From the NCBI RefSeq assembly GCF_003634105.1, contig NZ_RBIQ01000010.1:62001-126000 (forward strand): a DNA stretch of 64,000 nt, in the 5' to 3' direction. Of the stretch, positions 49,395 to 59,293 are shown piece after piece. Origin of the DNA: Maribacter vaceletii. GTDB taxonomy: Bacteria > Bacteroidota > Bacteroidia > Flavobacteriales > Flavobacteriaceae. Position 1 is the stretch's first letter; every line of letters starts with the position of its first letter. The translations under genes and the position numbers were made by a program. The notes below the pieces were generated by a model, which did no database searches, was not told where the DNA came from, and worked only from the letters and a program-made list of their open reading frames with translations.

Positions 49395-49566
49395 ATGAGA
49401 TAAAATCTATTTTTTTTTTAGATTAAGTTAAAAGAATAATAGTTCCGGATTTGTTTTGTGGCCTAGTAAAGCTGTTCTAACAGTTTATTTAGTAAAAAGT
49501 ATTTAATCAAACGCTGTTTTAAAGGCTTGGAATATAGATTCTAAAAGAATTTAACTAAATCTACGG

Positions 49567-49620
49567 ACTAAAAGGATAAACCCTTTCAAATAAATATTTG
49601 AAAGGGTTTATCCTTTTAGT
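49567..49620. repeat. Perfect 26-bp palindrome after the fucosidase gene
   Basis: Bases 49,567-49,592 (ACTAAAAGGATAAACCC...) are exactly complementary to 49,595-49,620 with only two bases between. The stem is much longer than a normal terminator and lacks a T tail. It may be a bidirectional terminator or the trace of an inverted duplication. The rest of the gene-free stretch 49,395-49,806 shows nothing else I recognise. Confidence 0.85.
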
Positions 49621-49806
49621 ATTATTAGAACAAATCCAAATAAAGACCATCAAAAATGACAGTTGTGTATAAAAGATGGAAATTAGGGCTTAAAATGGTT
49701 CCATCGGCAATCTGTAATAATTACCATTTTAATAATGAGAAATTGTTTAAAAGTATAAATAATAATAGAGTATGCAATAAAATTTTCTATATATTATTGA
49801 CAAGGT

Positions 49807-50455
49807 TTAAGAGTAAGATCCCATAAAATAGCAACATAAACAACGACTTACAAAATTTTTTTTATAATTATTTGGTGTATTCCTATAGAACTTACGGAAA
49901 CATTTCCCAAAATAATTAGGATTACTAAACCCTATCATATAACAAATGTGTGCAATGATATATCTATTTTGTTCTAGAAGCTGAACTACCTTTTTTAGCT
50001 TAATCAATCTTATAAAATCATTAAGCAAATGTCCCTTCAACTTTTTAATCTTTCTAAATATGATAAATAACTTGTTTCTATATCGACTGCTATCTCATCC
50101 AAACAATAAGATTCATTGGCCATATTACCCTCTATTAAATTCATTATGCATTTTAAAAATTCATCATCAAATGAATTTAAAACTTTTGTTTCTGGCGTAA
50201 ATTCTTCTTCCATTTGAAGCTTCTTTCTAATAAGCTCCCTCTACTCAATAAATTTATCAATTCTTAACAAAAGAAATTTCATTCTATATGGCTTTGGTAT
50301 ATATAAGCAACTGCTCCAGATTCGACTCCTTTGCTTCTATGTTCCATGGAATTCAAAGCAGTAAGTAAAACAACAGGTATATGACAGATCTAATATTTGT
50401 CTTCAATGCGTAGCAAAACTCAATTAAGTCCATTTCTGGTTCAAAAATCGATTAT
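49807..50455 (-). pseudogene. Remnant of a hybrid two-component regulator (receiver plus AraC HTH)
   Basis: Broken minus-strand frames. 50,455 to about 50,280 encode pieces of a receiver domain (PEMDLIEFCYALKTN, then in another frame ALNSMEHRSKGVESGAVAYI). 50,210 to 50,040 encode EEEFTPETKVLNSFDDEFLKCIMNLIEGN, and 50,040 to 49,807 encode the AraC HTH NDFIRLIKLKKVVQLLEQNR then IGFSNPNYFGKCFRKFYRN. These join in the order expected at the C-terminal end of a Bacteroidetes HTCS protein, with several frameshifts and stops. Sensor and kinase parts are gone. It may once have controlled the neighbouring glycan locus. Confidence 0.75.
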
Positions 50456-50545
50456 TGTATACCTCCCTCGCCGGGCGAAAGTTAACCACTAAAAAAGTCG
50501 ATTCTATTTGCAAAAAGTCAAAGGTCTTTTTATGTTAAAAAGAAG

Positions 50546-51562
50546 ATGGCCAATAAACAGATATTTATGCGAAAAGTAAAATAGATTTTCAGGCTGTACA
50601 GCAAGGGCATAAGCAAACTACAGATAAGTTCCAGATTAGGAATATCGCGTAAGACGATTTCCAAATACATCAACTTTTTCCAACGTAACCAGTTGATCGC
50701 TTAAGAGGTGTCTGCAATGACCTTGGAAGAACTTGACAAACTCTTCAAATTGAACAAAAAGACTAAAAGCGAGCAACTACTCACCTTAGAAAAGTACTTT
50801 CCTTATTTTGATAAGGAACTTTGTAAAACAGGAGTTACTAAGTAATTCTTATGGGAAGAATCTATTTTGAACCACCCAGAAGGTTTTAATCTTTAACAGT
50901 TTAGATATTGGTACAGAGGATGGAATAAATAAGCCTCTCCAGTGTTAAATTTTACACATAAAGCTGGTGATAACCTATTTATTGATTTTACAGAAAAAAA
51001 GCTAAGCATTGTAGATGAACATACAGGAGGAATACAAAAGTTAGAAGTTTTTGTATTAGTATTGGATAATAGTCAATTCACTTACATTGAAGCCTGTGAG
51101 AGTCAAAAGAAAGCGGATTTTATCAGTTGTTCAGAAAATTCATTATGATATTATGGAGGCGTTCCAAGCGCTCTTGTTACAGATAACCTTAGAATAGTAA
51201 TAAAAAAAGTAGCCGTTTTTTAACCCCTTATCAATGAAACCTTTACTGACTTTTCAGAGTATTACGAAACAGCAGTACTACCAACTAAAGCTTATAAACC
51301 AAGAGACAAAGCTATCGTAGAGAATGCAGTCTATATTATTTATACACGCGTTTTTTCATCATTAAGAAATCAAACCTTCCACAGCAAATCAGCACTCAAC
51401 AAAGCTATTTTAACACTACTTAATGGGTAAAATAATATGTATTTTAGAGGACGTGATCATTCTAGACACTCATTGGTTGAAGATATAGAAAATCGAACTC
51501 TTAAACCACATCCAGTAAAAAAGTATACCCTTAAACAATATGTAAAAGGGAACTGTTCATAA
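50546..51562 (+). pseudogene. IS21-family transposase (IstA) remnant
   Basis: Degenerate plus-strand frames: MANKQIFMRKVK, a stop, then KGISKLQISSRLGISRKTIS (HTH). The catalytic part has Asp in NLFIDFTEKKLSIVDEHTGG, Asp in LVTDNLRI, Glu in AIVENAVYI, and the C terminus KPHPVKKYTLKQYVKGN. At least four stops and frame changes interrupt it, and no IstB partner follows. The longest intact piece is 50,942-51,148. The bases up to 51,720 show no further gene. Confidence 0.8.
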
Positions 51563-51723
51563 GAAAAGTCATATATATAAACAAAGTCAAGCATTACTAA
51601 AGCATTCCTTACAAACACATTGACAATAAAACAAAATCATTATTTACAATTTTCAAAGTATAATGAAAACTCTCCGTTTTTCAAAATTTTCAGCTAGACC
51701 CTGAGGCAGAGCCACGAGGAATT

Positions 51724-52620
51724 CTATAGATTAAATGTTTTTTTTCTATAATTTAATGGAGAAATATTAAATACACGTTCAAACTGCAAAGTAAAATAAG
51801 AAGGACTAGAATATCCTAAATCATAACCTATGACACTTATAGATTTATTGGTGTTTTTTAATAAGCCTTTTGCCTTTTTCATTCGCTGTTCATGAATAAA
51901 CTTAATAGGAGTTGTACCTAAATGATGTTTAAATTGTCTAAAAAAGGTAGCTTTACTCATACAAGCCTTATCTGCTAATGTATTAATATCTACTTTGGAG
52001 CTTAAATTTTCTTTTATATGTTTAATAGCATAAGCCATTGGGTGGTCTAGTAACTTATTATTCTTATAACTATCTATAAGTACTCTATACATATTACTCT
52101 GTAAACTGCATAGTATTAATTCTTCTATCTTAATATCAATCCAATAGTCTTTAAACCTAACATTCCCAATCATTAGGCGTTGAATTTGTTTTAAAGTTTC
52201 CAATACGTACTGCCCTCCAGAACCATAATACAAATCAACAGGAGAAAGATTTTGTTCTTCTTCCATCAATTCGGGCATGCTAAAATCTTCATTAATTTTA
52301 TCTAATATTTTACCAACCTTTTCCTTTGATATTTCAAGAGTAAAGCAAGTAGCTGGCTTAATAGAACTAGTTTCTGGCAATTCTACATGTGCACTCATTT
52401 CTGCCGCGCCCATGACTACCATATTAGGATGTAAATCAAAAATACCGTGATTAGAAACAGAAATGTTTTTTACCCCATTCACAACATGTCCAAATACAAT
52501 ATTATCAAATTGATAGTCTTTACTTTCATTAGTTACATTGTAACTAACCAATAACTCTGCAGATTCTACTGTAGAAACAAATTCCTGAGATGAAAGCTTA
52601 GAAAAATTAATCATAACCAT
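51724..52620 (-). CDS. AraC-family regulator, probably of the divergent catabolic operon
   Basis: A 298-residue regulator. The C-terminal AraC DNA-binding domain (about 195-295) has both HTHs: KVDINTLADKACMSKATFFRQFKHHLGTTPIKFIHEQRMKKAKGLL and SISVIGYDLGYSSPSYFTLQFERVFNISPLNYRK. The N-terminal part (AraC-type ligand-binding, about 10-180) is of the CupR/AraC_N kind. It is divergently transcribed from the acyl-CoA ligase gene across 175 bases, the usual arrangement for an operon-specific activator; the inducer would be a pathway substrate. Confidence 0.88.
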   Translation of the reverse strand: MVMINFSKLSSQEFVSTVESAELLVSYNVTNESKDYQFDNIVFGHVVNGVKNISVSNHGIFDLHPNMVVMGAAEMSAHVELPETSSIKPATCFTLEISKEKVGKILDKINEDFSMPELMEEEQNLSPVDLYYGSGGQYVLETLKQIQRLMIGNVRFKDYWIDIKIEELILCSLQSNMYRVLIDSYKNNKLLDHPMAYAIKHIKENLSSKVDINTLADKACMSKATFFRQFKHHLGTTPIKFIHEQRMKKAKGLLKNTNKSISVIGYDLGYSSPSYFTLQFERVFNISPLNYRKKTFNL

Positions 52621-52795
52621 ATTCTTTAGTCCTGTTAATATACAATAAACTATTTTGATATTATCATTTTATAATTTGAGACTATACTTATATATTAAAT
52701 TCTCATTTTTAACATACTTTACCATAATTAAATTAATGATTCAATAATTATTGCCATAATATTCATTTTACTAACTATAAAATATAATTACCATT

Positions 52796-54346
52796 TTGTT
52801 AAACCTTTCGATTATTTTAGAAGATAGCACTAGAAGATATCCTAATAAAGATGCATTTATTTACAAAGACACGCATCTTAATTTTCTACAACTAAACAGT
52901 ATAGCAAACCAAATTGCAAACGGCATTAAATCATTAGGAATAAAAAAGGGGGATAAAATAGCCCTAAGTTGCTTAAACATCCCTTATTTCCCCATGGTCT
53001 ATTATGGAATTCTAAAAGCTGGCGCAACTATTGTCCCCTTAAGTGTCCTTTTAAAAAAAGATGAAGTCACCTACTACCTTAAAGACTCTAATGCCAAAGC
53101 ATATTTCTGTTTTACAGGAACTACCGAACTCCCCATGGTCGAAGAAGGCTATGCTGGTTTTAAAAATACACCTACTTGTGAACATTTTTTTGTGATTACC
53201 GAAAAACTAAATGATAAATCTCCCATTGATAAAATAAAAACACTTGGAATGCTGATGAATAATCAATCTTCCAAATATAGCACTACAGCAACCAGTGCAG
53301 AAGATACGGCAATAATCATTTACACTTCGGGCACAACAGGCAAACCAAAAGGCGCAGAACTTACACATTCTAATCTTCTACAAAATGCCATACTCTCCAC
53401 AGGAATTGCAAGCACACAAAATGAAGACAACCAACTTATAGTACTTCCGTTATTTCATATTTTTGCTATGACTGTTCTTATGAACGCAGGTATATATAAA
53501 GGCGCCACTAGTGTGTTATTACCTCGTTTTGATGCTAAAGAAGTTTTGAATCTAATGCAACAGCATCGTATATCAATATTTGCAGGGGTACCAACCATGT
53601 ATTGGGGACTATTAAACTATCAAAATGATGAATTTAATCTTGATACAATTACAACCAATTTAAAAACTTGTATTTCTGGTGGAGCATCTTTACCTGTAAA
53701 GATTCTTGAAGACTTTGAATCCAAATACAATATTAAAATCTTAGAAGGATATGGCATGTCTGAGGGTTCACCTGTTGTTACTTTTAACCATATAGATATC
53801 GGAAGAAAACCCGGAAGTATAGGCACACCTGTATGGGGGGTTGAAGTAAAAGTTGTTGATGAAAATGGTAATGAAGTACCTATAGGTGAAAAAGGGGAAT
53901 TAATATATCGTGGCCATAATGTAATGAAAGGATATTATAAAAAACCTGAAGATACTGCCAAAACTTTAAAGAATGGATGGTTATATTCTGGTGATGTGGC
54001 TATAAAAGATGAAGATGGCTTTTTCTTTATTGTGGATCGCACAAAGGATATGATTATTCGTGGAGGATTAAATGTTTACCCTAGAGAAGTAGAAGAAATA
54101 ATGATGAAACATGAATATGTCTCCATGGTTGCAGTTATAGGTAATACACATGAAAAATTTGGAGAAGAAATTAAGGCATGCGTAGTATTAAAAGAAGGTA
54201 AATCTATATCAGAAGATGAACTTAAAGCATGGACTAAAGAAAATATTGCATCCTATAAATATCCACGTATTATTGAATTTATGGATAGTTTACCTATGAG
54301 TGCAACTGGTAAAATATTAAAAAAAGAGCTTAAAAAATCAAATTGA
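52796..54346 (+). CDS. Acyl-CoA ligase (ANL superfamily)
   Basis: A 516-residue AMP-forming ligase that activates a carboxylic acid to its CoA thioester. Motifs: P-loop IIYTSGTTGKPKGAELTHSN (about 174-193), YGMSEGSPVV (about 320), YSGDVAIKDEDGFFFIVDRTKDMIIRGGLNVYPREVEE (about 397-435) and the catalytic Lys in SATGKILKKEL at the end. The start is TTG at 52,796 (no ATG lies nearby). It opens an operon with aldehyde dehydrogenase, OmpW, isomerase-like and flavoprotein genes, so it probably acts on the acid formed by the dehydrogenase. Chain length or aromatic preference cannot be read. Confidence 0.88.
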   Translation: MLNLSIILEDSTRRYPNKDAFIYKDTHLNFLQLNSIANQIANGIKSLGIKKGDKIALSCLNIPYFPMVYYGILKAGATIVPLSVLLKKDEVTYYLKDSNAKAYFCFTGTTELPMVEEGYAGFKNTPTCEHFFVITEKLNDKSPIDKIKTLGMLMNNQSSKYSTTATSAEDTAIIIYTSGTTGKPKGAELTHSNLLQNAILSTGIASTQNEDNQLIVLPLFHIFAMTVLMNAGIYKGATSVLLPRFDAKEVLNLMQQHRISIFAGVPTMYWGLLNYQNDEFNLDTITTNLKTCISGGASLPVKILEDFESKYNIKILEGYGMSEGSPVVTFNHIDIGRKPGSIGTPVWGVEVKVVDENGNEVPIGEKGELIYRGHNVMKGYYKKPEDTAKTLKNGWLYSGDVAIKDEDGFFFIVDRTKDMIIRGGLNVYPREVEEIMMKHEYVSMVAVIGNTHEKFGEEIKACVVLKEGKSISEDELKAWTKENIASYKYPRIIEFMDSLPMSATGKILKKELKKSN

Positions 54347-54373
54347 TTAGAACTGTATTAGCACCTTTTAATT

Positions 54374-55804
54374 ATGAATGAAACTATAAAAACTGTTCCA
54401 GAAGTCACATCAGAAGAATTGGAAAGAATATTTAAGCTTCAAAAAGAAAACCAATTTGCTGTTGGCAATACTACTGTATCACAACGTAAGGCCAAATTAA
54501 AATTGTTACACAAAGCTATCTTAAAGTATCGCCCTGAAATTAAGGACGTAATGTTTAAAGACTATAAAAAACATCCTAGTGAAGTTGATTTAACAGAAGT
54601 CTTTCCTATTACCAGCGAAATTAAACACGCAAAAAGAAATCTGAGTAGATGGATGGGCAAGCGTAAAGTAACGACCCCAATAGCACTACTAGGGTCAAGT
54701 TCATATATAAAATATGAACCCAAAGGAGTAGTACTCATTATTTCTCCGTGGAATTTCCCTTTTAATTTAACTTTTGGACCATTAGTAGGTGCCATTGCTG
54801 CCGGAAATACCGTAATTATTAAACCTTCTGAACATACGCCAAATTCTTCTGCTTTAATGAAAAAAATTATTTCTGAAGTTTTTAATGAAAATGAAGTAGC
54901 ACTAATAGAAGGAAGTATTGAAGCATCCAAAACATTACTAGCACAACCTTTTAATCATATCTTTTTTACTGGCGCTCCAAATATTGGAAAAGTAGTTATG
55001 GCGGCGGCTGCCAAACATCTTACTTCGGTAACCCTTGAATTAGGAGGTAAATCTCCTACCATTGTTGATGAAACTGCTAATATTGACATGGCTGCAAGAA
55101 GAATTGCCTGGGGTAAATACCTTAACAATGGACAAGTTTGTATAGCTCCCGATTATGTATTTGTTCATGAAAGTAAGAAAGAGCTATTTCTTAAAACTGT
55201 AGAAAAATATATTAAAAAATTCTATACTGAAGATATATCTAATGAAACATCTTATTCACGTATTGTAAACGAGCGTCATTTTAATCGTATAAAAGGTTAT
55301 GTTGAAGATGCTATTCAAAAAGGAGCAAAAGTAAATATTGGTGGAGAATTTGACGATGCTCAAAATTATATTTCTCCAACAGTAATATCAGAAGTCCCTT
55401 CAGATGCTGACCTAATGACTAATGAAATATTTGGCCCCATAATGCCTGTATATGCTTTTTCTAATTTAAATGAAGTCATTAATAAAATCAATGAAAAAGA
55501 AAAACCTTTATCCTTATATATTTATAGTAAAAGCAGCAAAAACATTAAATACATACTAAATAATACTCGTGCAGGTGGTGGCTGTATAAATCATTCCGCT
55601 GTACATTTTTTTAATACCAATTTACCTTTTGGGGGATCAAATAATAGTGGCATTGGCAAAGGACACGGTTGGCACGGGTTTCAATCTTTTTCTAACCCAA
55701 GAGGCATATTAAAGCAGCACATTCCTAATGCTCTAGAACTACTACTACCCCCCTACAATGATTTTAAACAAAATTTAATAAACCTAACAATTAAATATTT
55801 TTAA
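54374..55804 (+). CDS. Aldehyde dehydrogenase, class-3-like
   Basis: A 476-residue NAD(P)-dependent aldehyde dehydrogenase. It has GVVLIISPWNFPFNLTFGPL (about 116-135), IFFTGAPNIGKVVM, the general base Glu in VTLELGGKSP (about 221) and the nucleophile Cys in NNGQVCIAPDYV (about 255). The C-terminal PFGGSNNSGIGKGHGWHGF is followed by FSNPRGILKQ, as in class 3 enzymes acting on fatty or aromatic aldehydes. It starts 27 bases after the ligase. In this operon it is the natural consumer of an aldehyde made by the isomerase-like protein. Confidence 0.92.
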   Translation: MNETIKTVPEVTSEELERIFKLQKENQFAVGNTTVSQRKAKLKLLHKAILKYRPEIKDVMFKDYKKHPSEVDLTEVFPITSEIKHAKRNLSRWMGKRKVTTPIALLGSSSYIKYEPKGVVLIISPWNFPFNLTFGPLVGAIAAGNTVIIKPSEHTPNSSALMKKIISEVFNENEVALIEGSIEASKTLLAQPFNHIFFTGAPNIGKVVMAAAAKHLTSVTLELGGKSPTIVDETANIDMAARRIAWGKYLNNGQVCIAPDYVFVHESKKELFLKTVEKYIKKFYTEDISNETSYSRIVNERHFNRIKGYVEDAIQKGAKVNIGGEFDDAQNYISPTVISEVPSDADLMTNEIFGPIMPVYAFSNLNEVINKINEKEKPLSLYIYSKSSKNIKYILNNTRAGGGCINHSAVHFFNTNLPFGGSNNSGIGKGHGWHGFQSFSNPRGILKQHIPNALELLLPPYNDFKQNLINLTIKYF

Positions 55805-55857
55805 AATATAAAACTAATCTATTAATACATAGTACTAACCTAATAACCATAAAAATT

Positions 55858-56553
55858 ATGAAAATATTTAATTATAAGTTAAAACATAAATTTCAATTAA
55901 TAGTAGTGACCTTAGCATTACTACTTGTACCAAAAGTATTTTTAGCTCAAGATAATTCTGATAAAGATAAAGGCTGGTACATACAACCTGGGATACTCTT
56001 AGTAAACTTCTTAGAAGATTCTGAGGTGAGTGCAGCTGGAGCCCCAATACCAGGCGCATCTCTTAAATTATCTAATGATACATCTCCATCTGTTCAATTT
56101 GGTTATAATTTTTCTAAAAAATTCTCTATTTCTAGTTTAGTAGCAATTCCTCCAAAAACAACAGCAACTGGTGAAGGACCTTTAGATGGGCTTACTGCTG
56201 GTAAAGTAAGTTTTGTTCCAATAATATTAAGTGCTAATTATCACTTTACACTAAAAAACTTTAAGCCATTTATTGGTGCAGGTATTAATTATACTATAAT
56301 TTCTAAAGAAGAAGATGCAAATATTATAAATTTAAAAGCAGATAATATGTTTGGACCTATAATTAGAGGTGGTTTTGATTTTATGTTTTCTAAAAAATGG
56401 GGTTTTAATGCTTCTGCTACAATGAATTTTATAAAAACAGACCTTACAGGATCAGTAGATCCTTCAATACCTGATCTTGGTGGAGCTCCAGTGGAAGCCT
56501 CTGTTACGGTAAATCCATTAGCAATACAATTAGGGCTAGTATATAAACTATAA
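55858..56553 (+). CDS. OmpW/AlkL-family outer-membrane protein
   Basis: A 231-residue OmpW-type eight-strand barrel. After the signal peptide (about 1-30, LALLLVPKVFLAQ) comes the OmpW start KGWYIQPGILLVNF, the stretch LKLSNDTSPSVQFGYNFSKKFSISSLVAIPP, then GKVSFVPIILSANYHF and KPFIGAGINYTI, and a C terminus ending QLGLVYKL. AlkL and related OmpW proteins help hydrophobic substrates cross the outer membrane, so a lipophilic substrate for this operon is likely. Confidence 0.88.
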   Translation: MKIFNYKLKHKFQLIVVTLALLLVPKVFLAQDNSDKDKGWYIQPGILLVNFLEDSEVSAAGAPIPGASLKLSNDTSPSVQFGYNFSKKFSISSLVAIPPKTTATGEGPLDGLTAGKVSFVPIILSANYHFTLKNFKPFIGAGINYTIISKEEDANIINLKADNMFGPIIRGGFDFMFSKKWGFNASATMNFIKTDLTGSVDPSIPDLGGAPVEASVTVNPLAIQLGLVYKL

Positions 56554-56602
56554 GTTACCTTTTAATTAACACAAAAGAATTATAAAGTAAAATCATACTA
56601 TT

Positions 56603-57088
56603 ATGAACAAAAAACAACTTAAAATGATAGGTCATGGTTCCATTGTTCTCATCTTTGGATTATTGGCGGGTTTTGGACTTATTATGGATTTAATTGGCGG
56701 GTTTGAAATTTACCCCACAAATGTATTACAGTTTGACATTCCTGGAGATAGTGCTGCATGGGCAAGAGCACACGCAGGAGGCATCATGAATGGTATGCTA
56801 GTAATACTTGTTGCTTTGGTAATGTTTGCCATGAAATTACCAGAAAAACCATCATATCAACTATACTGGATGTTAATTGGTACTGGTTATGCTAATACCC
56901 TATTTTATTGGGGCGGACTAGCAGCCGGTGCACATCGTGCATTAACTTTTGGTAACAATCAACTTGGAGAAACAAGTATAGCAGGTATTCTTGGGTTATT
57001 ACCTGCTTTTATATTTGCTTTTGTTCTTCTAGTTGCTATATGGATACTAATGAAACAAGCTTTTAATATGGCTAAAAAAAATCAATAA
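56603..57088 (+). CDS. Styrene-oxide-isomerase-like membrane protein
   Basis: A 161-residue protein with four membrane helices (about 12-31, 60-78, 88-106, 124-150). It resembles StyC, the haem-containing epoxide isomerase: GHGSIVLIFGLLAGFGLIMD, GGFEIYP, WARAHAGGIMNGML, ANTLFYWGG and HRALTFGNNQLGE follow the order in StyC as I remember it. His57 would match the haem ligand, Asn63 and Tyr102 the substrate-binding pair. The Asp recalled near position 95 of StyC is Thr94 here. The expected reaction turns an epoxide into an aldehyde. The neighbours (aldehyde dehydrogenase, flavoprotein) fit this. The assignment comes from memory, not a search. Confidence 0.8.
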   Translation: MNKKQLKMIGHGSIVLIFGLLAGFGLIMDLIGGFEIYPTNVLQFDIPGDSAAWARAHAGGIMNGMLVILVALVMFAMKLPEKPSYQLYWMLIGTGYANTLFYWGGLAAGAHRALTFGNNQLGETSIAGILGLLPAFIFAFVLLVAIWILMKQAFNMAKKNQ

Positions 57089-57141
57089 CGTAACTAATTT
57101 ATTTCTAAATATTAAGAATAGCTTTTAATTTTACATACAAT

Positions 57142-58455
57142 ATGAAGACTGATTATTTAATCATAGGTGCTGGTGCTATGGGAATTGCTTTTGCAGACGA
57201 AATATTCACACGCAATTCAAACATTACAATAACTCTTATTGATCGCCGTGCTAAGCCTGGCGGACATTGGAATAACGCATACCCTTTTGTTGGATTGCAT
57301 CAACCAGCAGCTTTCTATGGAGTAAATTCGGAAGAATTAGGTACCAATACTACGCATCTTTCTTCAAAGCCAGAAATATTAGATTATTATAAAGAAATAA
57401 TACAAAAATTTGAATCTAGTGGTAGAGTAAAATTTTTTCCAAAACATAATTATTTAGGAAACAACCAAGTAGTAGACCTCAATAATCCAGAAAACATAAT
57501 TACTTTTCAAGTCAATAAAAAAGTAGTCGATGCTACGTATATGAATGTTGAGGTACCCTCTACACACCCTCCTAAATATAAAGTAGATAATGGCGTTCCT
57601 TTAAAGCCATTAAATAACCTTGATGTTGAATATAACAAATGGGGAAGTTTCTACGTAATAGGAAGTGGAAAAACAGGAATGGATGCTATTCTCTATTTAT
57701 TAAAAAAAGGAGTTAACGCAGAAAATATTAACTGGATAGCTCCAAACGATGCTTGGTTGTTTAATCGTAGCCATATACAAGTTGGGAAAATTTCAAAAGA
57801 ATTACTAAAACATGCAGAACTAATAAAAAACGCCAATAAAGTAGATGATGTATTTTTAGAAATGGAAAAAGAAGGGGGCATTTTTAGAATAGATAATAGT
57901 ATTGCCCCTGTTAAGTGGCGTTGTGCAACTGTAAGCCCTGAAGAATTAATTCTGTTACGCTCTATAAAAAAAATAATTCGTAAAGGAAGAATAGAAAGTA
58001 TTACAAATAAAGAAATACAACTTCAAAAAGGGACTGTTGCCTATCCAGAAAACACACTCTTTGTAGACTGTACAGCTAACGGACTTTCTAAGCGTGAAAA
58101 AAGACCAATATTTTCTGAAAAATTAATAACGTTACAAGCCGTATTATTTTGTCAGCAAGTTTTTAGTGCTGCAGTAATAGCTCGTTTAGAACTAACAAAC
58201 ATAAGCGATACAACAAGAAACAATATTGAACCTGTACCCCATCCTGAATTTAAGGAAGATTGGCCAAAATCTATGTCTACAACCATAAATAATTTACTGG
58301 TTTTTCATCGCCATTTTCCTTTATGGATGTTCCGTTCTAGATTAAATTTTATGAGCCATGAGCCTATGCTTCAATATTTTGGTTACGCCATAAAAGCAGC
58401 CCTTTTATCTGGCCCAACAAAAAAAGCTGTTAGTAGATTAGCAAAAATATCTTAA
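57142..58455 (+). CDS. Flavoprotein with FAD and NAD(P) motifs, putative monooxygenase
   Basis: 437 residues with an N-terminal FAD Rossmann motif (YLIIGAGAMGIAFADE, G8-x-G-x-x-G) and a second dinucleotide motif FYVIGSGKTGMDA near 172-184. Together these give the layout of two-domain flavin monooxygenases. Characteristic is RRAKPGGHWNNAYPFVGLHQPAAFYGV (about 36-62). The class B fingerprint FxGxxxHxxxY is not seen, and it is unlike StyA, which has no second Rossmann motif. In this operon it is the best candidate for making the epoxide; function as an oxidoreductase of another kind cannot be excluded. A terminator follows it. Confidence 0.75.
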   Translation: MKTDYLIIGAGAMGIAFADEIFTRNSNITITLIDRRAKPGGHWNNAYPFVGLHQPAAFYGVNSEELGTNTTHLSSKPEILDYYKEIIQKFESSGRVKFFPKHNYLGNNQVVDLNNPENIITFQVNKKVVDATYMNVEVPSTHPPKYKVDNGVPLKPLNNLDVEYNKWGSFYVIGSGKTGMDAILYLLKKGVNAENINWIAPNDAWLFNRSHIQVGKISKELLKHAELIKNANKVDDVFLEMEKEGGIFRIDNSIAPVKWRCATVSPEELILLRSIKKIIRKGRIESITNKEIQLQKGTVAYPENTLFVDCTANGLSKREKRPIFSEKLITLQAVLFCQQVFSAAVIARLELTNISDTTRNNIEPVPHPEFKEDWPKSMSTTINNLLVFHRHFPLWMFRSRLNFMSHEPMLQYFGYAIKAALLSGPTKKAVSRLAKIS

Positions 58456-58517
58456 TTTAAAATTATAACAATCATATTATATAAGAGTGTCTTAAAAAGT
58501 GTTAAACTTTAATAAAT

Positions 58518-58540
58518 GTCCTGTACCACAAGTGCAGGAT
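58518..58540 (+). terminator. Terminator of the isomerase/flavoprotein operon
   Basis: GTCCTGTAC (58,518-58,526) pairs with GTGCAGGAT (58,532-58,540) including two G-T pairs, with a 5-base loop and GCTTTATTTTT after it. It lies 63 bases past the flavoprotein stop. Confidence 0.7.
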
Positions 58541-58654
58541 GCTTTATTTTTAAACATTTCTATAGCTAAAAAAGACGATTGCAAATACTGTTATTACATA
58601 ATCTCGTTACAAAATATCGAATACAATACAGTCCATTTAAAATAAAATAGAATT

Positions 58655-58708: not shown

Positions 58709-59293
58709 ATGGTTGGTAGACCAAAACATTATCCAGAAAAAATATTAATTAATAAGGCAACAGAAGTGTTCTGGAAAAAAGGCTATACAGCTTCTTCTGC
58801 ACAAGATTTAATGAAAGCTATGGATATTGGTCAAGGAAGTTTTTACAGAACATTCCCAGGTGGTAAAAATGAACTCTATCAAAAAACATTAAATCTATTT
58901 TTAGAACAATCAATTAAATTGTTTTATGAAAGAATAGCAGCAGCAGAAAACCCTGTTCAATTTATTAAAGATTTTTTCTATGCTATCACTTTACGTACAA
59001 ATGATAAAAAAGAAAACGGATGTTATTTAGGAAATGCCATTGTAGAATCTAGTAATTTAGATGAGAATTCAAAATTAATTGCGACAAAACAATTAATTAA
59101 ATTGCAAAAAGGATTTGAGAAAGCCTTAGAAAAAGCGCAAAGTCTAGAAATGTTAAGTGCACAAAATTCTCCTAAATTACTAGCTGCTTACTTAATTAAT
59201 TTATGGAATGGAATTAATGTAACACAAAGGATGAACCTTACTAATAAAGAAATGGCGAAGTTATTGGAATTAAATTTACAAATATTAAATTGA
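58709..59293 (+). CDS. TetR-family repressor
   Basis: A 194-residue TetR regulator. The N-terminal HTH (about 8-50) is LINKATEVFWKKGYTASSAQDLMKAMDIGQGSFYRTFPGGK. The ligand domain (about 60-194) has the ENGCYLGNAIVESSNLDENSKLI segment typical of the YcdC/AcrR-like group that senses small electrophiles. It is followed by dsrE and carries its own palindromic operator; the same sequence precedes dsrE, so it probably represses itself and the redox genes downstream. Confidence 0.9.
   Translation: MVGRPKHYPEKILINKATEVFWKKGYTASSAQDLMKAMDIGQGSFYRTFPGGKNELYQKTLNLFLEQSIKLFYERIAAAENPVQFIKDFFYAITLRTNDKKENGCYLGNAIVESSNLDENSKLIATKQLIKLQKGFEKALEKAQSLEMLSAQNSPKLLAAYLINLWNGINVTQRMNLTNKEMAKLLELNLQILN

Follow-up and report, generated by a model that had tools for sequence, protein, structure and literature searches.

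We analysed a 64-kb stretch of the Maribacter vaceletii genome (contig NZ_RBIQ01000010.1; hereafter, the window) in which a divergent AraC-family gene and five co-directional genes (51724–58455 in the open reading frame (ORF) list) encode a regulator, an acyl-CoA ligase, an aldehyde dehydrogenase (ALDH), an OmpW-family porin, a StyC-family (styrene oxide isomerase-like) protein and a flavoprotein with two dinucleotide motifs (designated Flavo). We favour, with moderate confidence, the interpretation that these genes form an inducible operon for the catabolism of a hydrophobic alkene, in which Flavo would act as the epoxidase and StyC as the epoxide isomerase. The strongest sign that StyC and Flavo work together is that the pair appears to have been inherited jointly across two phyla, and the pathway is probably real, because unrelated bacteria also carry these two enzymes. 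An original prediction had described five genes in one direction with a divergent AraC gene at this position, and both the ORFs and the protein families agree with it.

The StyC–Flavo pair in two phyla

The StyC and Flavo genes stand side by side in six genomes from Bacteroidota (the window genome, G000, and a second species of the genus, G681) and Gammaproteobacteria (Panacagrimonas perspica (G686), a second Panacagrimonas (G687), G718 and G692). At the two Panacagrimonas loci (L009 and L010), a StyC relative (55–56% identity) is directly followed by a Flavo relative (46–48%), and neither StyA nor StyB was found within the 20 kb fetched. When 58 genomes of the P. perspica family were searched with Flavo, 31 gave matches at E values up to 0.001 (most of them weak and at the N terminus), and 13 matches in 12 genomes were strong (E below 1e-80). 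StyC lies immediately upstream of Flavo in four of these 13 (the two Panacagrimonas, G718 and G692), and, of the ORFs called at these four loci, StyC and Flavo alone recur; the one exception is a 34% match that links L009 and L010. Another four strong matches lie inside StyAB loci (G688, G689, G690 and contig 11 of G721), four lack StyA, StyB and StyC within the fetched stretch (G702, G708, G727 and contig 8 of G721) and that of G714 was seen as a short locus only. Flavo homologues also occur on plasmids (nine records; the two inspected have no annotated sty gene).

Both trees set the paired proteins apart. In the StyC tree of 54 rows, the window protein forms a clade (100/95) with those of L008 (from the second species of the genus), L009 and L010, separate from 42 rows, among them those linked to StyA, and from eight others. 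In the tree of 59 rows, the six Flavo-adjacent StyC proteins require one change, and L134, a StyC relative from a different setting in P. perspica, also falls on their branch (99/95). Partner labels on this tree (StyA, 34 rows; PF10118, seven; Flavo, six; the 12 unlabelled rows are uncounted) need two changes—the minimum—compared with a mean of 12.2 after shuffling. The StyA label denotes presence in the fetched stretch, with second StyC copies included. Short matches such as L054 were left out of the tree. The L035 StyC, from a diiron monooxygenase operon, is unlabelled and falls in the StyA-type clade; the L135 and L136 rows have very long branches and their placement is unsure. The Flavo tree, built from an alignment of 20 rows, joins the six StyC-adjacent proteins in a clade (100/98) that divides into the window protein and L008 on one side and the gammaproteobacterial four on the other. 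The four of these loci that the 54-row StyC tree contains divide in the same way there, and L115 is unresolved in the 59-row tree. One Flavo row, L029, was grouped as 'in StyAB locus' although its stretch and genome lack StyA. A 10-column gap after the FAD-binding region is common to the six StyC-adjacent Flavo proteins; the 14 others have residues there.

Conservation of the six-gene block

The second species of the genus carries the whole block (locus L008/L056), with identities of 60% for AraC, 71% for the ligase, 73% for the ALDH, 62% for OmpW, 77.5% for StyC and 64% for Flavo. At the DNA level, positions 51748–58445 of the window align with L056 as a single piece (70.6% identity, 6,779 columns), and blastn of the window against L056 gave no further match outside the block. 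The conserved unit spans AraC to Flavo, in different surroundings. The grouping of these genes is not due to chance, because the block aligns with L056 as one piece and because six genomes have StyC next to Flavo. The expectation that the gene set would be kept in another genome was thereby confirmed; as to its conservation in other Bacteroidota, the second species carries it, with the full set found in only two species of one genus. The unit itself needs redrawing, given that StyC and Flavo are kept more widely than the five-gene set and that AraC belongs to the block.

The StyC family was found in two of eight genomes of the genus, in one of 299 sampled genomes of the bacterial family and in one of 395 sampled from the phylum, the last two both being the window genome; the operon is rare and patchy. 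For wider comparison, genome contigs were scanned for peptide patterns with a StyC alignment, which yielded 47 loci. The scan required exact patterns and did not list the StyC–Flavo pairs of G718 and G692, both of which came from the later Flavo search; at G+C-rich loci, genes were called with a simple script and neighbours may be missed. In viral contigs, 48 stretches fit the pattern and none was confirmed as a StyC relative, and a phage origin was set aside on that basis. Base composition is uninformative about recent transfer: the G+C content of the block (31.9%) equals that of the window (31.9%), and the window contains no tRNA gene.

Active-site residues of StyC

The original prediction had staked its StyC assignment on the alignment of a 161-residue protein (56603–57088, plus strand) with this family. 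Residues 5–156 align with the cryo-electron microscopy structure of styrene oxide isomerase (SOI; 8pnu; phmmer, E = 4.9e-28), and the protein scores 159.2 bits on NF045734 (cut-off, 150), on which the L008, L009, L114 and L115 proteins reach 167 to 193 bits. Homology to SOI, a haem b Meinwald isomerase (8pnu/8pnv), is thus near full-length. Passages of PMC11374702 describe H58 of SOI as the axial haem ligand and N64 and Y103 as positioning the substrate, and include N99 among the residues with an assigned role. The corresponding residues of the window protein (H57, N63, N98 and Y102) are kept in all four Flavo-linked rows and are invariant in a six-row alignment. SOI R112 is also retained; judged by position, its counterpart in the Rhodococcus enzyme would be R111, a likely contact of the haem propionate according to passages of PMC12502698.

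Unlike SOI, the window StyC is changed at four positions (Asp95 to Thr, Trp97 to Tyr, Phe105 to Gly and Phe127 to Ala) and falls outside the StyA-type clade. The four changes are found in four of four Flavo-linked proteins and are invariant in the six-row alignment; in the StyA-type clade, D95 and W97 are present in 42 of 42 rows, and F105 and F127 are mostly fixed. Given that the catalytic residues are retained and positions 95, 97, 105 and 127 are changed, the chemistry of the enzyme is probably kept and its substrate is probably different. Hydropathy gave three transmembrane-like blocks; this crude method may merge helices and was not used.

Predicted resemblance of Flavo to flavin-containing monooxygenases

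Flavo (57142–58455, plus strand) carries two GxGxxG-type sites on one chain (GAGAMG at residue 9 and GSGKTG at residue 174), in agreement with the two dinucleotide motifs noted originally. Across 20 homologues, 49 positions are invariant, including G9, G11, G174 and G176, and the last letter of the motif is variable. Single-sequence likeness to structures of CHMO and bacterial flavin-containing monooxygenases (FMOs) covers roughly the first 100 residues, a CHMO profile match extends to about residue 180, and the weak matches in PDB are mostly of FMO/Baeyer–Villiger monooxygenase (BVMO) type and Thi4 type. An AlphaFold2 model built from eight sequences (pLDDT, 78.7; pTM, 0.81; weak at residues 40–76) retrieved FMO/BVMO chains at Foldseek ranks 1–6 (E = 6.6e-10 to 1.4e-08; TM about 0.4–0.55), with YpdA at rank 7. 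VIA-align returned Z values of 14.4–15.9 over the 50 entries listed, which include DiatB, YpdA, FMOs, disulfide reductases and others; we rejected DiatB as the identity of Flavo, since it tops this list yet is tied with unrelated flavoproteins. On the predicted model, Flavo is an FMO-like flavoprotein of a family in which we found no characterized member, with a putative monooxygenase role. Epoxidation by Flavo would be chemically possible, because a class B BVMO is reported to epoxidize an electron-rich C=C bond (passages of PMC3915288).

Candidate oxygenases beside StyC

The predicted lack of a StyA-type oxygenase held at the level of the genome, which shows just a weak match of about 60 residues (E = 9.4e-4); Pfam searches of the operon proteins gave no StyB-type gene, and no genome-wide StyB search was made. 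StyA is present in one of the six pair genomes, that of P. perspica, where it has its own StyC; G687 is a metagenome-assembled genome (MAG), and its lack of StyA is weak evidence. Soluble diiron monooxygenase (PF02332) was not found in G000, G681 or G692 and is present in G718 and G687, and P. perspica has one in L135. All six genomes encode P450s (one each in G000 and G681). Flavo is therefore the sole oxygenase candidate found beside StyC in three genomes (G000, G681 and G692), with a P450 encoded elsewhere possible.

Across the 47 StyC loci, the fetched stretches contain StyA in 27, Flavo in seven, a PF10118 protein in six, a soluble diiron monooxygenase in five and a relative of the PF00487 protein of L134 in one. 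PF00487 includes membrane oxygenases and desaturases. P. perspica alone has five StyC relatives in five settings. StyC stands with StyAB at L051 and with Flavo at L009; at L134, it ends a run of genes for an acyl-CoA dehydrogenase, a PF00487 membrane protein, an enoyl-CoA hydratase and a PRK06187 ligase; at L135, it lies inside a soluble diiron monooxygenase operon; and at L136, it follows a PF10118 protein. The L135 and L136 relatives score 68 and 63 bits on NF045734, below the cut-off. Two of these five neighbours belong to known oxygenase families (StyAB and soluble diiron), and by analogy with them Flavo is a fair candidate for the oxygenase partner of StyC.

Other StyC neighbours were recorded in the same survey. 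A PF10118 'predicted metal-dependent hydrolase' is encoded directly 5′ of a separate StyC clade at L013, L033, L037, L038, L040, L046 and L136 (for example, L013:9034–10008, L033:5486–6385, L037:9060–9959 and L136:7814–8773), as identified by Pfam for the L037 and L136 proteins and by tblastn for the other loci, and this protein may be an unrecognized partner enzyme of StyC. StyC genes lie inside soluble diiron monooxygenase operons at L035:6410–11581 and L135:7402–11201. The L033 and L037 contigs, which carry StyC and diiron monooxygenase genes, are titled as Klebsiella pneumoniae MAG, a species label that seems doubtful.

Proposed pathway

The ligase gene (52796–54346, plus strand) has a TTG start codon, as does its aligned L008 relative, and encodes an acyl-CoA ligase of the PRK06187 subfamily (NF004837, 491.3 bits against a cut-off of 476; PF00501/PF13193) with the motif YTSGTTGKPKG at residue 176; its top PDB matches are feruloyl-CoA and fatty-acyl-CoA synthetases. 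The ALDH (54374–55804, plus strand; PF00171, 331.1 bits) has the motifs GQVC at residue 253 and ELGGK at residue 222, and its best PDB matches include class 3 and fatty aldehyde dehydrogenases; on the two StyD models of NCBIfam, it scores 205.5 and 182.4 bits, far under the cut-offs of 800 and 850. The porin (55858–56553, plus strand) belongs to the OmpW family (PF03922, 71.7 bits; cut-off, 24) and fails the NCBIfam OmpW equivalog (46.8 bits; cut-off, 287); its nearest solved relative is AlkL (6qam; E = 3e-15), with OprG and OmpW ranking behind. AlkL is an alkane-uptake porin; unlike AlkL systems, the window operon contains no alkane hydroxylase. The AraC-family regulator (51724–52620, minus strand) matches HTH_18 (80.3 bits) and AraC_N (27.1 bits) in Pfam.

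From these assignments, we propose that the AlkL-like porin would admit the alkene; that Flavo, as a single-component enzyme with FAD and NAD(P)H, would epoxidize its C=C bond; that StyC, as a membrane-bound haem protein, would very probably convert the epoxide to an aldehyde by Meinwald rearrangement; that the class-3-type ALDH would oxidize the aldehyde to a carboxylic acid; and that the ligase would activate this acid for β-oxidation or a similar route, with AraC presumably sensing the alkene or an intermediate. The originally proposed order of uptake, epoxidation, isomerization, oxidation and CoA activation fits the gene set; its direction of flux, its regulation and the epoxidase step of Flavo are what we infer. 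Overall, the original reading is partly supported.

Among the closest known systems is the styABCD operon for styrene side-chain oxidation in Pseudomonas sp. VLB120 and Rhodococcus (passages of PMC5874493 and PMC13101518). Like it, the window operon combines a StyC-family epoxide isomerase, an aldehyde dehydrogenase and CoA activation of an acid, and an OmpW porin is present in some sty loci. In contrast to styABCD, it has no StyA or StyB and has one flavoprotein of another family in their place, its ALDH lies outside the StyD models and PaaA was not found in the genome. The regulator also differs (AraC rather than StyS/StyR), although AraC is annotated in a Rhodococcus sty locus as well. More broadly, and more tentatively than for the operon itself, StyC-type haem isomerases could be plug-in Meinwald modules that have been joined to several unrelated types of oxygenase; Flavo would then be a one-protein alkene epoxidase, and StyC–Flavo a two-gene module in Bacteroidota and Gammaproteobacteria for anti-Markovnikov conversion of aliphatic or terpenoid alkenes to aldehydes.

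Evidence against an epoxidase role and alternative explanations

Several observations weigh against the proposed pathway. Flavo has only weak family matches in the Pfam, NCBIfam and PDB searches (Rossmann/FMO-type), and phmmer and profile searches of PDB found no characterized homologue. It resembles class B FMOs and type I BVMOs in carrying two GxGxxG-type motifs on one chain and in its predicted model; unlike them, it has no PF00743 match at E up to 0.1 and lacks the FMO/BVMO fingerprint FxGxxxHxxx(W/Y/F), which is present in none of 20 homologues. In StyC, Thr replaces the Asp95 of SOI, a residue whose change to Ala substantially impairs that enzyme (passages of PMC11374702). The full operon was found in just two species. 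Nine of the 47 StyC loci contain none of the five partner types (two of the nine are near a contig end), so StyC need not adjoin its oxygenase, and the window genome, like G681, has one P450 gene at another site. A sister clade of the paired Flavo proteins sits in StyAB loci (L024, L025, L027 and L116), where an epoxidase is already present, and other homologues lack any sty gene within the fetched sequence. The latter include two of the three strong Flavo matches among the 299 sampled family genomes (the third being that of the window): those of G212 and G173, Flavobacteriaceae with Flavo proteins 41–43% identical, which have no StyC in the 19 kb fetched around Flavo. At one of the sister-clade loci, L116 (G721), StyA, StyB, a regulator-sized ORF and Flavo stand in a row, with no StyC in the 19.5 kb fetched.

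The presence of Flavo homologues in loci that already hold StyAB, together with the P450 gene of the window genome, is the basis for a first alternative: the epoxide would be made elsewhere (for example, by a P450) or be external, and Flavo would carry out another oxidation, such as a Baeyer–Villiger-type reaction with the carbonyl formed by StyC or with a later metabolite. At two loci (L119:8969–12304 and L120:2949–6284), a sister-clade Flavo is followed by a BVMO-like protein, which also counts in its favour; Pfam and NCBIfam searches, made on the L119 protein only, gave a PF00743 match and a PtlE model score below the cut-off. Baeyer–Villiger and heteroatom oxygenations are the main known reactions of class B enzymes, and passages of PMC3915288 name the former. 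We nevertheless regard it as rather unlikely: the StyC–Flavo pair is kept in four genomes with otherwise differing neighbour ORFs, the paired Flavo proteins form a separate clade marked by the 10-column gap, and the neighbour of StyC in styABC operons is its epoxidase.

A second alternative is that the genes detoxify epoxides or aldehydes from algae (defence compounds or oxylipins), with StyC and the ALDH removing them and Flavo taking a further product. Life on algae is suggested by an α-L-fucosidase gene upstream of the operon and by SusC/SusD-type proteins, also upstream and recognized by eye alone, and the sparse distribution (one of 299 family and one of 395 phylum genomes sampled) would suit such a role. 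We consider detoxification improbable, as the uptake porin and the CoA ligase suggest that the compound serves as a carbon source, and no homologue of the window ALDH was found beside the pair in L009, L010, L114 or L115.

Least probable is styrene side-chain oxygenation to phenylacetyl-CoA with Flavo in place of StyAB, which would fit the StyC family membership and the occurrence of OmpW in 10 of the 47 StyC loci (L008 and nine others, eight of these nine with StyA or StyB) and is opposed by the absence of PaaA (TIGR02156; the sole paa gene searched) from G000 and G681, by the distance of the ALDH from StyD and by the changes at D95, W97, F105 and F127.

Returning to the alkene operon with Flavo as epoxidase, its substrate would probably be an aliphatic or terpenoid alkene rather than styrene, and catabolism of styrene to phenylacetyl-CoA in the window genome is unlikely, because PaaA was not detected, the ALDH is outside the StyD models and the ligase belongs to a general acyl-CoA subfamily. 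We disfavour styrene as the substrate on the PaaA, StyD and StyC residue evidence. PaaA is present in both Panacagrimonas genomes.

Boundaries of the operon

Inside the five-gene operon, the intergenic gaps are 27, 53, 49 and 53 nt. The Bacteroidota-type promoter pattern TAnnTTTG has no match between 52621 and 52795. The terminator foreseen at the operon end has a counterpart in a hairpin at 58517–58541 (plus strand; 10-pair stem and T-rich tail; a consensus match only); terminator-like sites number six in the region against 3.4 ± 1.8 in shuffles, and the hairpin is weak evidence by itself. Downstream, a TetR-type regulator gene (58709–59293; best NCBIfam model AcuR, 48.6 bits; cut-off, 247) lies 3′ of the operon and, by blastn against L056, outside the conserved block. 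Upstream, the 2.3 kb between the fucosidase and AraC genes (49395–51723) contain a single ORF of at least 70 amino acids. This 77-amino-acid ORF (49807–50040, minus strand) resembles, by look, a C-terminal fragment of AraC and is perhaps a decayed regulator.

Implications

In the literature passages, SOI serves naturally in styrene degradation alongside StyA and StyB, and PMC11374702 names PenF as the only other enzyme reported for Meinwald rearrangement. The literature listings and passages at hand turned up neither a StyC operon of non-StyA type nor StyC in Bacteroidota. What is new here is a putative StyC-type route for alkene side chains with an uncharacterized flavoprotein in place of the styrene oxygenase. 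If this reading is correct, it would bring a StyC-type route to Bacteroidota, among which no other genus had StyC in our genome samples, and define a family of flavoenzymes that is new and whose reaction can be tested. StyC together with a self-contained flavoprotein would constitute a compact alkene-to-aldehyde catalyst, and the operon would point to an unrecognized marine alkene as food for these bacteria.

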